From Enterobacter vonholyi (GTDB lineage: Bacteria; Pseudomonadota; Gammaproteobacteria; Enterobacterales; Enterobacteriaceae), in NCBI RefSeq assembly GCF_008364555.1, contig NZ_VTUC01000004.1:62001-126000 (forward strand): a stretch of DNA of 64,000 bases, in the 5' to 3' direction. The notes under the pieces were generated by a model. That model ran no database searches. It was not told where the DNA came from and worked only from the letters and a program-made list of their open reading frames with translations. Position 1 is the stretch's first letter; each line of letters begins with the position of its first letter. Position numbers and translations under genes: made by a program. Below are positions 13,169-48,067 of this stretch, one piece after another.

Positions 13169-13290
13169 CAACACTCCGCGATGATTAAGAAAGGGGTAAT
13201 TATCGCCTATGACGCGCTTTTCTTAAAGCCATGTAAAGGCGTGGATTTGGTCCTCTTTTCGTGACTCTCCTCGCAGGTCATCTATATAAA

Positions 13291-39053: not shown

Positions 39054-40478
39054 CTACTTTTGTGAGAACTGTTGGGTCAGGTAGTTGGCTGTACTGGTCA
39101 TTTTGGTGACTAATACGTCCAGACTGGTGAACTGGGTTTTGTAACGTGCCATGGTGGCATCAATAGTGGCTTCCATAGCATCGTAACGCTCACCCAGCGT
39201 TTTTAGCGTTTTGTTGATCCCGTCTTTCGCGTTCTGGATCACCCCGGCGCTGCCGGTACTGGTGCTGAGCATGGTGGTCAGCGTGTTGTTCATCTGGGTG
39301 GCCATACCGGTTTTCTTTCCGTCACCGACAAAATACTGCTGTACGGCGTTCGGGTTATCGGTCAGCGCTTTTTTCAGCTTATCGGTATCGACTTTCAGGT
39401 TACCGACGGTACCGTCAGAACCTTTTACCGGGTCCTGGGTAATTCCCAGCTGGGCCATGATCTGTACCGAGCCGCTCTGCACTTCGGTCAGCAGACCGCG
39501 CAGCTGAGACTGGATCCCGCGCACGTTCGCATCACCAACAAGTGCCCCGTTGCTAGCTGACTGGCTGCCGGAGCCAGCATCAACCGGAACATATTTCGTC
39601 AGGCTGTTAATGGTGGACTGCAGCGAGTTATACGCCGTGACCCAGTCCGTGATCGCTTTCTGGTTAGCATCCGTTGCGCGAGTCACCTCTAATGTTTCAT
39701 CTGCCTTGCTTTCTGCTTTCAGCGAGAAAGTCACGCCGGGCAGGGCATCGGTAATGGTATTCGACTGGCGCTCGATGGAGATGTTGTTCACTACCACAAT
39801 CGCGTTCTGCGCGTCGGTGTTCACCGTCAGCGCGCCCGTTTTGGTGGTTGAGTCGTAGCCAATGGCGCTTTGCAGCTTGGCGTCGCCAGTGACGCTTACC
39901 GTCATCGCACCATCCGTACCGGTGGTTTTAGATGACAGCATCAGGCGGTAATCACCGTCTTTCGCTTTAATGACGCTGGCGGTGACGTTGCCGTTCGCTT
40001 TATTAATGGCGCTCGCGATCCCGGCCAGAGACGTATCGCCATCCGCCAGGGTGACCTCTAAAGGCGTTTTCGTGCCCGGCTGGGTGATGGTGATTTTACG
40101 CGTTGTACCTGTCGTATCGCCCAGCAGATCAGTGTTGTTTGCATAGGAGCCGGTAGTGAGTGCCTGTGCCTTGGCAACCTGGTTGACGTTTACAACAAAG
40201 GAACCGACAGATGCGTCAGCCGTTGTCGTGGCGGTAAAGGCCGTATTGGTACTGCTAACGGACGTTGAGTTCCAGGTGGTTGCTTTACCCAGCGCAGCGG
40301 TCGCGGTCTGCAGCGATGTCATGGCGCTCTGCAGCTTGCCGTAAGCGCTTAACTGCGCGTTATACGTTGATTGCTGGGAAGTAATCGTCGTCAGCTTGGT
40401 TCTTTCTGCTGCATCCAACTGATTATATAAATCCCCGAGTCCTGCAGAACCTATCCCGAGGTTACTGATAGTAGCCAT
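39054..40478 (-). CDS. fliD: Flagellar filament capping protein FliD
   Basis: The 474-residue cap protein has the N-terminal FliD domain (MATISNLGIGSAGLGDLYNQ), a variable Thr/Ala-rich centre and the C-terminal coiled region (TLGERYDAMEATIDATMARY, VLVTKMTSTANYLTQQFSQK). It helps flagellin fold and assemble at the tip. The ATG at 40478 follows AAGGAAAAT. The longer frame to 40568 runs through the sigma-28 promoter and is rejected. First gene of fliDST. Confidence 0.94.
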   Translation of the reverse strand: MATISNLGIGSAGLGDLYNQLDAAERTKLTTITSQQSTYNAQLSAYGKLQSAMTSLQTATAALGKATTWNSTSVSSTNTAFTATTTADASVGSFVVNVNQVAKAQALTTGSYANNTDLLGDTTGTTRKITITQPGTKTPLEVTLADGDTSLAGIASAINKANGNVTASVIKAKDGDYRLMLSSKTTGTDGAMTVSVTGDAKLQSAIGYDSTTKTGALTVNTDAQNAIVVVNNISIERQSNTITDALPGVTFSLKAESKADETLEVTRATDANQKAITDWVTAYNSLQSTINSLTKYVPVDAGSGSQSASNGALVGDANVRGIQSQLRGLLTEVQSGSVQIMAQLGITQDPVKGSDGTVGNLKVDTDKLKKALTDNPNAVQQYFVGDGKKTGMATQMNNTLTTMLSTSTGSAGVIQNAKDGINKTLKTLGERYDAMEATIDATMARYKTQFTSLDVLVTKMTSTANYLTQQFSQK

Positions 40479-40516: not shown

Positions 40517-40543
40517 TTATCGGCCTCTCAACGTAAAAGTTTA
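40517..40543 (-). promoter_or_regulatory. Sigma-28 promoter of fliDST
   Basis: On the minus strand TAAACTTT, 11 bases, GCCGATAA: near-perfect match to the FliA consensus (TAAAGTTT-N11-GCCGATAA), 39 bp before the fliD ATG. Confidence 0.93.
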
Positions 40544-40778: not shown

Positions 40779-40805
40779 TAAAGTCTTTTGGGGACCCGTC
40801 GATAA
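40779..40805 (+). promoter_or_regulatory. Sigma-28 promoter of fliC
   Basis: TAAAGTCT, 11 bases, GTCGATAA matches the FliA consensus at 14 of 16 positions. A roughly 65-base leader precedes the fliC ATG. The region between this and the fliD promoter is AT-rich without a gene. Confidence 0.93.
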
Positions 40806-40879: not shown

Positions 40880-41704
40880 ATGGCAGTTATCAATACTAAC
40901 CTGTTGTCCCTGACCACTCAGAACAACCTGAACAAATCTCAGTCTTCTCTGGGCACTGCTATCGAGCGTCTGTCTTCCGGTCTGCGTATTAACAGCGCGA
41001 AAGACGATGCTGCTGGCCAGGCGATTGCAAACCGCATGACCTCCCAGATCAAGGGGATGAATCAGGCAGCACGTAACGCCAACGACGGTATCTCCATGGC
41101 GCAGACTGCTGAAGGCTCTCTGAACGAAATCAACAACAACCTGCAGCGCGTTCGTGAACTGGCTGTTCAGGCAACAAACGGCACCAACAGCGCCTCTGAC
41201 CTGGCTTCTCTGCAGGATGAAGTTACCGCACGTCTGGCTGAAATCAACCGTGTTGCAAGCAAAACTGACTTCAACGGCATCAAACTGTTGGATGGCACTG
41301 CTGGTACAGCTGGTGTGGTTAAAATTCAGGTTGGTGTAAACGATGGTGACACTATCAACTTGGATCTGACTACTGCGAAAGCTGACACGGCCACTCTTGG
41401 TGTTGCAGCTATCGACCTGAAAAACTTGGCTGGTACTGAGTTGAAAACTATCGACGATGCTATCGCTAAAGTTGATACCGCTCGTTCCGGTCTGGGTGCT
41501 GTGCAGAACCGCTTCACTTCTGCAATCAACAACCTGAACAACACCTCTAACAACCTGTCTGCTGCTCAGTCCCGTATCCAGGACGCTGACTACGCAACTG
41601 AAGTTTCCAACATGTCTCGCGCGCAGATCCTGCAGCAGGCTGGTACTTCTGTTCTGTCTCAGGCAAACCAGGTTCCACAGACCGTTCTGTCTCTGCTGCG
41701 TTAA
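40880..41704 (+). CDS. fliC: Flagellin FliC (short form)
   Basis: At 274 residues this flagellin is far shorter than E. coli FliC (498). It keeps the D0/D1 helical domains: N-terminal MAVINTNLLSLTTQNNLNKS, SSGLRINSAKDDAAGQAIAN and QRVRELAVQATNG; C-terminal TEVSNMSRAQILQQAGTSVL and ending VPQTVLSLLR. The region between (about 140-190) is too small to form the D2/D3 surface domains. AAGGAAAG lies before the ATG, and a sigma-28 promoter and a terminator bracket it. Third-base use favours C and T, typical of a highly expressed gene. Confidence 0.96.
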   Translation: MAVINTNLLSLTTQNNLNKSQSSLGTAIERLSSGLRINSAKDDAAGQAIANRMTSQIKGMNQAARNANDGISMAQTAEGSLNEINNNLQRVRELAVQATNGTNSASDLASLQDEVTARLAEINRVASKTDFNGIKLLDGTAGTAGVVKIQVGVNDGDTINLDLTTAKADTATLGVAAIDLKNLAGTELKTIDDAIAKVDTARSGLGAVQNRFTSAINNLNNTSNNLSAAQSRIQDADYATEVSNMSRAQILQQAGTSVLSQANQVPQTVLSLLR

Positions 41705-41715
41705 TTTTACGCACG

Positions 41716-41741
41716 AAACCCCGCTTCGGCGGGGTTTTTTT
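41716..41741 (+). terminator. Rho-independent terminator of fliC
   Basis: AAACCCCGC, TTCG, GCGGGGTTT followed by TTTT, with a UUCG tetraloop, 11 bases after the stop. Transcription of fliB probably depends on read-through or its own promoter. Confidence 0.95.
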
Positions 41742-41766
41742 ATCTCTGCTATTTGAGAATCCGCCT

Positions 41767-42972
41767 GTGAAACAAATCAGTGTCACTCAACCAAAGCTGG
41801 TCGCAGATTTTTCATGTGTCGGTGGGGAATGCCGTGAACATTGTTGTCAGGGCTGGACCATCGCGTTTGATAAATCCTCCGTTAATCGCTATCTGAACAG
41901 TAAAAATGCCGCCATTCGTCAGACCGCAAAAACGGCGATAAAAGTCACCAAAAAAAACTATGACCACTGGGGTGAAGTGATTTTCCATACGGAAAGTAAA
42001 AACTGCCCGTTTATGGATACGGAAAAACTCTGTTCTGTTCATGGCGCCATGGGCGTCCAGGCCTTAAGCCCAACCTGTTCGACATTTCCACGGACAAGCC
42101 GGGTCTATAAAAATGAAATCGAAAAATCGCTGAACCTCTCGTGTCCGGAAGTGACCCGACTTCTGTTGAACGATCGGGAGTCTATGTCGATGATGGAATC
42201 GGTTATTGTCCAGCAGGACGTCAATAACGCGCCAATGATTGATTTGAAGGCCAAGGTCATCAATCTCTTCTGCCAGAATATATTCAGCGTTGAAGGTGTT
42301 AGCGTTGAAGAACAGGTTTACGCCATGGTGAAATTCCTCATGGTGGCTGAAAAGCTCGATAATCTCGAAGAGAATATCGGCACGCTCGAAACGGTCTATT
42401 TCTCGCTGGTTAACGAGCTGGTGAGCGGTAAAATCAAGACGGAGCTTGGCGGGTTTAATCAGAACTACAGCCTGAAATTCGCGCTAATTTCGCTCATCCA
42501 GAGCTATTTTACGAAGAAAGCGACAGCCCGCGGCGGTGCGGTATTAAATCGTTATTTTACCCAGCTTTATCAACAGTTTGAGTCTACTGGTGACACCGTT
42601 CCGGCAGAGAAGGTCATGGAAAACATCGAGTCCGTCTGGCGCGATGTGGCAAGCGGTTACCTGGCGACCAATGACCATTTATTTAAGAACTTTTTTAAAT
42701 ACAAACTCTGGGAGCAGGCCTTTCCGCAGAACAATGGCCGCAGCATGTTGAATAACCTTTATTTAATCGTCGCGGAGTTCTATTTCCTTAAAACGTTACT
42801 TGCCGGTCAGGCACTCGTGGCGGGAAAAATTGAACAAGATAATATCATTGATGTTATTTACAGCTTCCACTCCCTTAGCCAGCATAATCAGGAAGCGGGA
42901 AAGCTCTTTCATCAACATATAGATAGCGTCAAACTCGGCGACGATCTTTCATTGTTACAACTGTTAATTTAG
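41767..42972 (+). CDS. fliB: Flagellin lysine-N-methylase FliB
   Basis: The 401-residue protein matches Salmonella FliB, which methylates flagellin lysines. The N-terminal YkgJ-like cysteine cluster is intact: Cys17, Cys22, Cys26 and Cys27 (CVGGECREHCC), then NCPFMDTEKLCSVHG and SPTCSTFPR, a likely metal or Fe-S site. The rest is helical without familiar motifs. It starts 62 bp after fliC and the fliC terminator lies between. E. coli K-12 lacks it, while Salmonella has it next to fliC. The start is GTG-like in context (CCGCCTGTGAAACAAATC), giving MKQISV. Confidence 0.9.
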   Translation: MKQISVTQPKLVADFSCVGGECREHCCQGWTIAFDKSSVNRYLNSKNAAIRQTAKTAIKVTKKNYDHWGEVIFHTESKNCPFMDTEKLCSVHGAMGVQALSPTCSTFPRTSRVYKNEIEKSLNLSCPEVTRLLLNDRESMSMMESVIVQQDVNNAPMIDLKAKVINLFCQNIFSVEGVSVEEQVYAMVKFLMVAEKLDNLEENIGTLETVYFSLVNELVSGKIKTELGGFNQNYSLKFALISLIQSYFTKKATARGGAVLNRYFTQLYQQFESTGDTVPAEKVMENIESVWRDVASGYLATNDHLFKNFFKYKLWEQAFPQNNGRSMLNNLYLIVAEFYFLKTLLAGQALVAGKIEQDNIIDVIYSFHSLSQHNQEAGKLFHQHIDSVKLGDDLSLLQLLI

Positions 42973-43101: not shown

Positions 43102-43821
43102 GTGAATTCACTCTATACCGCTGAAGGTGTAATGGATAAACACTCGCTGTGGCAGCGTTATGTCCCGCTGGTGCGTCACGAAGCATTGCGCCTCCAGGTG
43201 CGCTTGCCGGCGAGCGTGGAACTCGACGATCTGCTACAGGCGGGCGGTATCGGGTTATTGAATGCAGTTGACCGATACGACGCTCTGCAAGGAACGGCAT
43301 TTACGACTTACGCAGTTCAGCGTATTCGTGGTGCGATGCTGGATGAGCTGCGCAGCCGTGACTGGGTGCCGCGCAGTGTTCGCCGCAACGCACGCGAAGT
43401 GGCGCATGCGATGGGGCAGCTGGAACAGGAACTGGGACGCAACGCAACGGAAACCGAAGTGGCGGATCGTCTTGGCATTGCTGTTGAAGAGTATCGTCAG
43501 ATGTTGCTCGATACCAATAATAGCCAACTCTTCTCTTATGATGAGTGGCGCGAAGAGCATGGCGATAGCATCGAGCTGGTGACGGACGAGCACCAGCAGG
43601 AGAACCCGTTACACCATTTAATGGAAGGGAATTTACGCCAGCGCGTCATGGAAGCTATTGAAGCTCTGCCTGAACGCGAACAGCTGGTATTGACCCTTTA
43701 TTACCAGGAAGAGCTTAACCTCAAAGAGATTGGCGCTGTTCTGGAGGTGGGAGAGTCGCGGGTGAGCCAGCTGCACAGCCAGGCCATTAAACGCTTACGA
43801 ACCAAGCTGGGTAAGTTATAG
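43102..43821 (+). CDS. fliA: Flagellar sigma factor FliA (sigma-28)
   Basis: The 239-residue sigma factor directs class III flagellar promoters. It is almost identical to E. coli FliA: region 2 (DDLLQAGGIGLLNAVDRYDA, FTTYAVQRIRGAMLDELRSR), region 3 (ETEVADRLGIAVEEYRQML) and region 4 (LNLKEIGAVLEVGESRVSQL). The start is GTG at 43102, as the conserved MNSLYTAEGVMDKHSLWQRY requires. A second in-frame ATG at 43132 exists but would drop conserved residues. fliZ follows 54 bp downstream. Confidence 0.96.
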   Translation: MNSLYTAEGVMDKHSLWQRYVPLVRHEALRLQVRLPASVELDDLLQAGGIGLLNAVDRYDALQGTAFTTYAVQRIRGAMLDELRSRDWVPRSVRRNAREVAHAMGQLEQELGRNATETEVADRLGIAVEEYRQMLLDTNNSQLFSYDEWREEHGDSIELVTDEHQQENPLHHLMEGNLRQRVMEAIEALPEREQLVLTLYYQEELNLKEIGAVLEVGESRVSQLHSQAIKRLRTKLGKL

Positions 43822-47891: not shown

Positions 47892-48067
47892 ATTCTCCCT
47901 ACGGGCGCCGTCCTTTGATTTTTTATTCCGCCCAGCTCGGATAAACCTTATGAATACTAAAGTTAATTGGGCTATTGCCGATATTTTGCAGTTAGAAAAA
48001 AGTTTTATGTGTTAGTTTATATTCACCATAATAATGATTATCTTTTCAGAGGCTTCATTTAGTAAGT

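Follow-up and report, generated by a model that had tools for sequence, protein, structure and literature searches.

What can a flagellin lysine methylase be acting upon when the flagellin encoded directly upstream of it has almost no D2/D3 region, the part of the protein that Salmonella FliB chiefly methylates (without a clear consensus around the modified lysines, according to the accessible text of PMC7181671)? This question is raised by a stretch of 64,000 nucleotides of Enterobacter vonholyi DNA (hereafter the window; contig NZ_VTUC01000004.1, positions 62,001 to 126,000), which belongs to a genome of 4.59 Mb in 38 contigs. A first-pass annotation had read two of its genes as a minimal 274-residue flagellin followed by a flagellin lysine methylase, and our analysis confirms this: FliC is complete, the 401-aa FliB is intact and the gene order is that of Salmonella. 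It had left three options for the methylase: that D1 surface lysines are its target, that it has another role, or that fliB is a leftover. The fliD-fliC-fliB-fliA-fliZ order is shared with Salmonella enterica, in which FliB acts on FliC/FljB (PMC7181671, PMC8598068); the Salmonella flagellin that we compared has 500 aa, 30 lysines and D2/D3 domains, whereas the window FliC has 274 aa, ten lysines and neither domain.

The fliC gene (40880..41704, + strand) is a complete open reading frame whose product matches Pfam Flagellin_N at residues 4-140 (156.5 bits) and Flagellin_C at residues 188-273 (115 bits); little sequence lies between the two conserved domains and FliC is a D0/D1-only short flagellin. 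Upstream of it, 40779..40805 (+) matches exactly the sigma-28-type promoter pattern TAAAG-N14-GNCGATAA. With up to one mismatch this pattern occurs four times in the window, against 0.23 expected; the three further sites, each with one mismatch, are 40517-40543 (-), upstream of fliD, and 13200-13226 (-) and 47958-47984 (+), the latter two of which may mark additional flagellar-regulon genes. The neighbouring genes are fliD, for the filament cap (39054..40478, -; FliD_N and FliD_C domains), and fliA, for sigma-28 (43102..43821, +), an open reading frame with the position and order of the annotated fliA of the Salmonella locus used for comparison. Between fliC and fliB lies a hairpin resembling an intrinsic terminator (41715..41738, +), with a 10-bp stem followed by a T run, one of four found by a consensus scan of the region for which 2.4 were expected. 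The host genome holds only one other match to PF00669, a 318-aa frame on a different contig, which from the usual length of FlgL is presumably that protein.

Our AlphaFold2 model of FliC (seven sequences used; pLDDT 76.6) aligns with the Shewanella oneidensis FlaB filament structure 9oxk with Z 18.4 and rmsd 2.0 over 189 residues at 43% identity. The tip segment, residues 131-208 (FNG to QNR; 41270..41503, +), is modelled as two strands (146-150 and 158-162), loops and the start of a helix that spans 187-239, and by analogy with S. oneidensis the tip would face outwards in the filament. FliC has ten lysines, at positions 19, 41, 58, 128, 135, 148, 167, 181, 189 and 197, and the last six of these (K135 to K197) lie in the tip: six in 78 residues, against four in the other 196 (Fisher p = 0.034). 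Thus the first-pass description of a flagellin with minimal D2/D3 is borne out, but its remark that the short centre has few lysines is not.

The fliB gene (41767..42972, +; GTG start) begins 62 bp past fliC and is followed by fliA. Its 401-aa product scores 261.5 bits against the NCBIfam model NF038110 Lys_methyl_FliB (cut-off 85), and its location between fliC and fliA is that of FliB, which is a loose criterion, many members of the FliB family being located elsewhere. The window FliB and Salmonella FliB have the same length and are identical at 159 of 401 residues; nine cysteines stand at identical numbers in the two, all of them kept in the window copy, and eight of the nine are present in 47 or 48 of 48 FliB proteins (C17, C22, C26, C27, C80, C89, C104 and C126). 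The first four of these eight form the CX4CX3CC motif (41815..41847, +), with the same residue numbers as in Salmonella. Salmonella FliB is described in PMC8598068 as a cytosolic, oligomeric protein near the membrane whose activity depends on SAM and a [4Fe-4S] cluster; its action is proposed to precede export, and its fourfold C17/C22/C26/C27 alanine mutant loses both cluster and activity. By analogy, the window FliB probably also carries a [4Fe-4S] cluster and transfers methyl groups from SAM to flagellin lysines.

The fliB gene is intact, linked to fliC and under purifying selection: dN/dS has a median of 0.098 and a range of 0.048-0.203 across 55 pairs drawn from 11 intact Enterobacter orthologues. 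We discarded an AlphaFold2 fold of FliB (seven sequences), which had a mean pLDDT of 57.9, and less than 50 in the cysteine region; Foldseek gave no match to this model at E <= 0.001, and phmmer gave no match of FliB to PDB sequences at E <= 10. Nine plasmid and five phage records match FliB, all with their best places at less than 60% identity. The Salmonella sequence used for comparison (L232; NZ_CP022016.1, S. enterica serovar India) is itself a 473-kb record named plasmid unnamed1, which bears fliD-fliC-fliB-fliA-fliZ-tcyJ; this may be chromosomal DNA carried by a second replicon, or it may stem from the assembly.

The apparent paradox of a short flagellin with a methylase is weak, because the literature already reports methylated lysines in short flagellins, those of S. 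oneidensis and Aeromonas caviae. The FlaA and FlaB flagellins of S. oneidensis are alike in size to the window FliC (PDB chains of 271-272 residues), and FlaB is reported to be methylated at K159, K163, K167, K188 and K189, with extra density at K167 and K189 (PMC3765264, PMC11839096). FlaB K163 falls opposite window K167 in a gapped alignment or T164 in an ungapped one, so that the region agrees and the column is ambiguous. In A. caviae, FlaA and FlaB are reported to be methylated at K42, K114 and K128, the K42 data being given as ‘not shown’ (PMC9290775). These systems differ from the window in that their flagellins are also glycosylated, in that the A. caviae authors name a D2/D3 region in theirs, and in that the accessible accounts of both do not attribute the lysine methylation to FliB. 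Wang et al. do name, in their supplementary legends, an E. cloacae flagellin and FliB homologues from Shewanella, A. caviae and E. cloacae. In Aeromonas diversa we found fliB beside four flagellins of 284-296 aa, and outside the family a flagellin lay in the stretch fetched for 13 of 26 genomes with fliB, of at most 336 aa in 12 of the 13.

We consider it likely that the window encodes a flagellin and FliB pair of the Salmonella kind in which the flagellin is without outer domains, and that FliB methylates the exposed lysines of the D1 tip. In D3-deletion mutants the methyl-lysines shift with exposure (work cited in PMC8598068), and FliB appears to sense surface exposure, not sequence; since it appears to read exposure and no D2/D3 exists here, the D1-tip lysines would be its targets. 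FliB, as a SAM-dependent [4Fe-4S] enzyme, would act in the cytosol, ahead of export, methylating accessible lysines of FliC at their epsilon-amines; the predicted sites are mainly K148, K167, K181, K189 and K197, perhaps K128, with K135 excepted. In the filament the methylated tip lysines would lie on the outside and, as in Salmonella, give it a more hydrophobic and more adhesive surface. We infer the activity of the window FliB on FliC, the sites and the surface effect alike, and on that footing the D1 surface lysines are the best supported of the three options; this would remove the paradox. Against this reading, PMC8598068 proposes that FliB recognises D2 and D3 and describes the D0/D1 lysines of Salmonella flagellin as unmodified.

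The pairing is real and conserved, and FliB probably acts in it on exposed D1-tip lysines. Among 61 Enterobacter genomes, fliA gave a single match per genome, at 96-100% identity, in all except G044, and the locus was read in the 60 that had it. Twelve carry the 274-aa flagellin (91-100% identical), and fliB stands directly behind it in 12 of 12, against 1 of 48 other genomes (counts by genome, kinship ignored); the one exception, G039, has a 375-aa flagellin and a divergent fliB. Eleven of the 12 fliB copies are intact. That of G016 is interrupted in frame by a nonsense codon at position 24, between cluster cysteines, which reflects either a recent loss in nature or an error in the sequence; the 274-aa flagellin of this genome has 13 lysines, the most among the twelve. 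A tree of fliA DNA (119 of 120 loci, G333 being omitted) places 11 of the twelve genomes inside a cluster of 14 and the twelfth outside it, the remaining members of the cluster being two genomes with islands (see below) and one whose flagellin is long and which lacks an island. This placement, with low support within the cluster, fits repeated exchange of the segment. In a tree of 48 FliB proteins (without G039 and most of the 12 Enterobacter orthologues) the window clade is sister to the Salmonella-type clade, whose flagellins have 424-528 aa; therefore one enzyme lineage pairs with both flagellin sizes.

The presence of fliB in Enterobacter, and of flagellin methylation and glycosylation islands in the Enterobacteriaceae, has already been reported (PMC4875605), and the window fliB is a flagellin methylation island in the sense of that paper. 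Its accessible text relates the islands neither to the length of the flagellin nor to the composition of its tip, and we did not find a link between length and islands in the open-licence literature searched. Taking the smallest flagellin per locus, and calling flagellins short below 350 aa and long from 400 aa upwards, we found fliB or a glycosylation-type island behind fliC in 34 of 38 Enterobacter genomes with short flagellins and in 0 of 21 with long ones (p = 2.4e-12, kinship ignored). Twelve of the 34 have fliB and 22 have a gap of 3.8-14.4 kb before fliA. All nine islands that were scanned contain a glycosyltransferase domain, on one open reading frame each (GT41 in seven, GT2 in two); the other 13 Enterobacter islands, and 18 in the wider family, were called from gap size alone. 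In 60 family genomes of other genera, fliB or an island accompanies 17 of the 20 short flagellins and 9 of the 33 long ones (p = 5.6e-5); for islands alone the counts are 16 of 20 and 1 of 33, and for fliB alone 1 of 20 and 8 of 33, which shows no association with length (p = 0.13). Both samples include short flagellins that have no island at all, 4 of 38 in Enterobacter and 3 of 20 in the family.

The family sample was taken from 94 genomes with fliA, of which G000 (the host genome) and G029 are in the genus set, 62 were fetched around fliA, G333 was fetched via fliB, and 29, mostly the most distant, were left out; at the loci of G505, G157 and G591 the stretch that was fetched contained no flagellin. 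G518 (a 1.25-kb gap with one unidentified ORF) and G054 (a 751-bp gap with no 150-aa ORF) were counted as island-free. When short flagellins and islands were compared over ten pairs on starred branches of the fliA tree, an average of 5.3 were concordant, 0.2 opposite and 4.5 without difference, the median p being 0.0625 (range 0.0156-1) and so short of significance; the same test of fliB against length was null. The link between short flagellins and glycosylation-type islands is thus strong in counts and consistent in direction, and is not secured against relatedness.

The composition of the tip follows the enzyme. In Enterobacter, the fliB-linked tips (n = 12) have a lysine fraction of 0.077-0.103 and a Ser+Thr fraction of 0.103-0.167, without overlap with the short island-linked tips (n = 22), which have lysine at 0.034-0.073 and Ser+Thr at 0.207 or more; this comparison excludes G039 and a 162-aa fragment of G012. 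The greater lysine content of the fliB-linked tips speaks for the action of FliB upon them. In other genera, the lysine fraction is 0.000-0.078 in 15 island-linked tips, the upper end of which reaches the fliB range, and 0.020-0.073 in seven short flagellins that lack both fliB and an island; the family's other short fliB-linked flagellin (275 aa, from G462) has a tip lysine fraction of 0.090. Flagellins without the segment motif were left out of the lysine comparison, namely 21 of the 23 fliB-centred flagellins (Aeromonas and others), G039, G538, G529 and the G012 fragment. The lysine half of this pattern rests mainly on one clade, in about two events: because the 12 short flagellins linked to fliB are closely related, the enrichment amounts to about one event plus G462. 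A further point against the action of FliB on these tips is the absence of lysine enrichment in long flagellins with fliB (11 vs 27, p = 0.96).

One alternative is that methylation is weak or inconsequential here, the pair being kept by linkage and the lysine-rich tip being an accident of one clade. In accordance with it, fliB has no association with short flagellins in the family, the tree-based pair test of fliB against length is null, and the lysine number among the 12 flagellins is under no significant constraint (variance 0.89, compared with a mean of 1.92 after shuffling; P = 0.09, which is suggestive only). We nevertheless regard this as unlikely, given the second lineage, G462, where a FliB only 35% identical stands with a 275-aa flagellin that also has a lysine-rich tip, and given the low dN/dS, which argues for a selected function.

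That FliB acts here mainly on a non-flagellin protein is, in our view, more doubtful still. FliB relatives away from flagellins do exist, which leaves the option of another role some small probability: 13 of 26 fliB-bearing genomes outside the family have no flagellin within the ~6 kb fetched, and an Enterobacter FliB paralogue terminates a fimbrial operon. The host genome, however, has a single FliB and no second copy; its fliB lies directly behind fliC and is tied to one flagellin type, and the protein is sister to the flagellar FliB of Salmonella. Finally, the suggestion that fliB is the leftover of a long-flagellin ancestor and is now inactive might appeal to the 424-528-aa flagellins of the sister clade and to the nonsense codon in one of 12 orthologues (G016), but is contradicted by the low median dN/dS and by the retention of every cysteine in the window FliB, and we find it scarcely credible.

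Methylation of D1-tip lysines by FliB therefore stays our preferred reading, and the window flagellin, with ten lysines and no outer domains against the 30 lysines of the Salmonella protein, offers a clean test of how FliB chooses its lysines. The wider comparisons provide the more interesting lead, namely that a short flagellin tends to be accompanied by a modifying enzyme matched to it. We tentatively propose, while giving it rather less than even weight, that at the main flagellin locus of the Enterobacteriaceae outer domains and covalent decoration are alternative means of forming the filament surface; a short flagellin and its decorating enzyme would be inherited or exchanged as one cassette, in which the bare D1 tip adapts to the enzyme (lysine for FliB, Ser/Thr for glycosyltransferases), the window being the methylation version. 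If this were true, flagellin length alone would predict chemical decoration of the filament, which would matter for adhesion, for the binding of phages and for immune recognition in Enterobacter and its relatives.

At some loci, five or more genes for short flagellins stand in tandem before fliA. In G059 and G058 (loci L119 and L120) these are near-identical copies of 278 aa; in G026 and G053 (loci L092 and L094) the copies differ, at 296-327 aa, and no island is present.

FliB relatives also occur at eight loci whose fetched stretch is without flagellin (L135, L137, L139, L140, L142, L152, L157 and L160). Pfam scans of one or two neighbours at each locus gave ABC transporter, EamA, AsmA and peptidase M19 domains, and further APS kinase, PAPS reductase, Na/Ala symporter and amine oxidase domains, with no common theme among them. 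Eleven of the 61 Enterobacter genomes (L004-L014), though not that of the window, have a second FliB paralogue, which shares about 30% identity with the window FliB. The copy in L165 scores 297.7 bits against NF038110, above the window FliB itself. We did not find a FliB with a fimbrial operon described among the open-licence papers listed; in four of four extended loci (L165, L166, L167 and L169) the paralogue ends a chaperone-usher fimbrial operon, its order intact, which in L165 encodes by Pfam a fimbrin, chaperone, usher, MrkD-like adhesin, minor fimbrin and LuxR-type regulator. Within 1.5 kb of the paralogue the regulator is present in 11 of 11 loci and the minor fimbrin in 10 of 11. Although this protein passes the flagellin lysine-N-methylase model, it may have another target, perhaps the fimbrial subunits.
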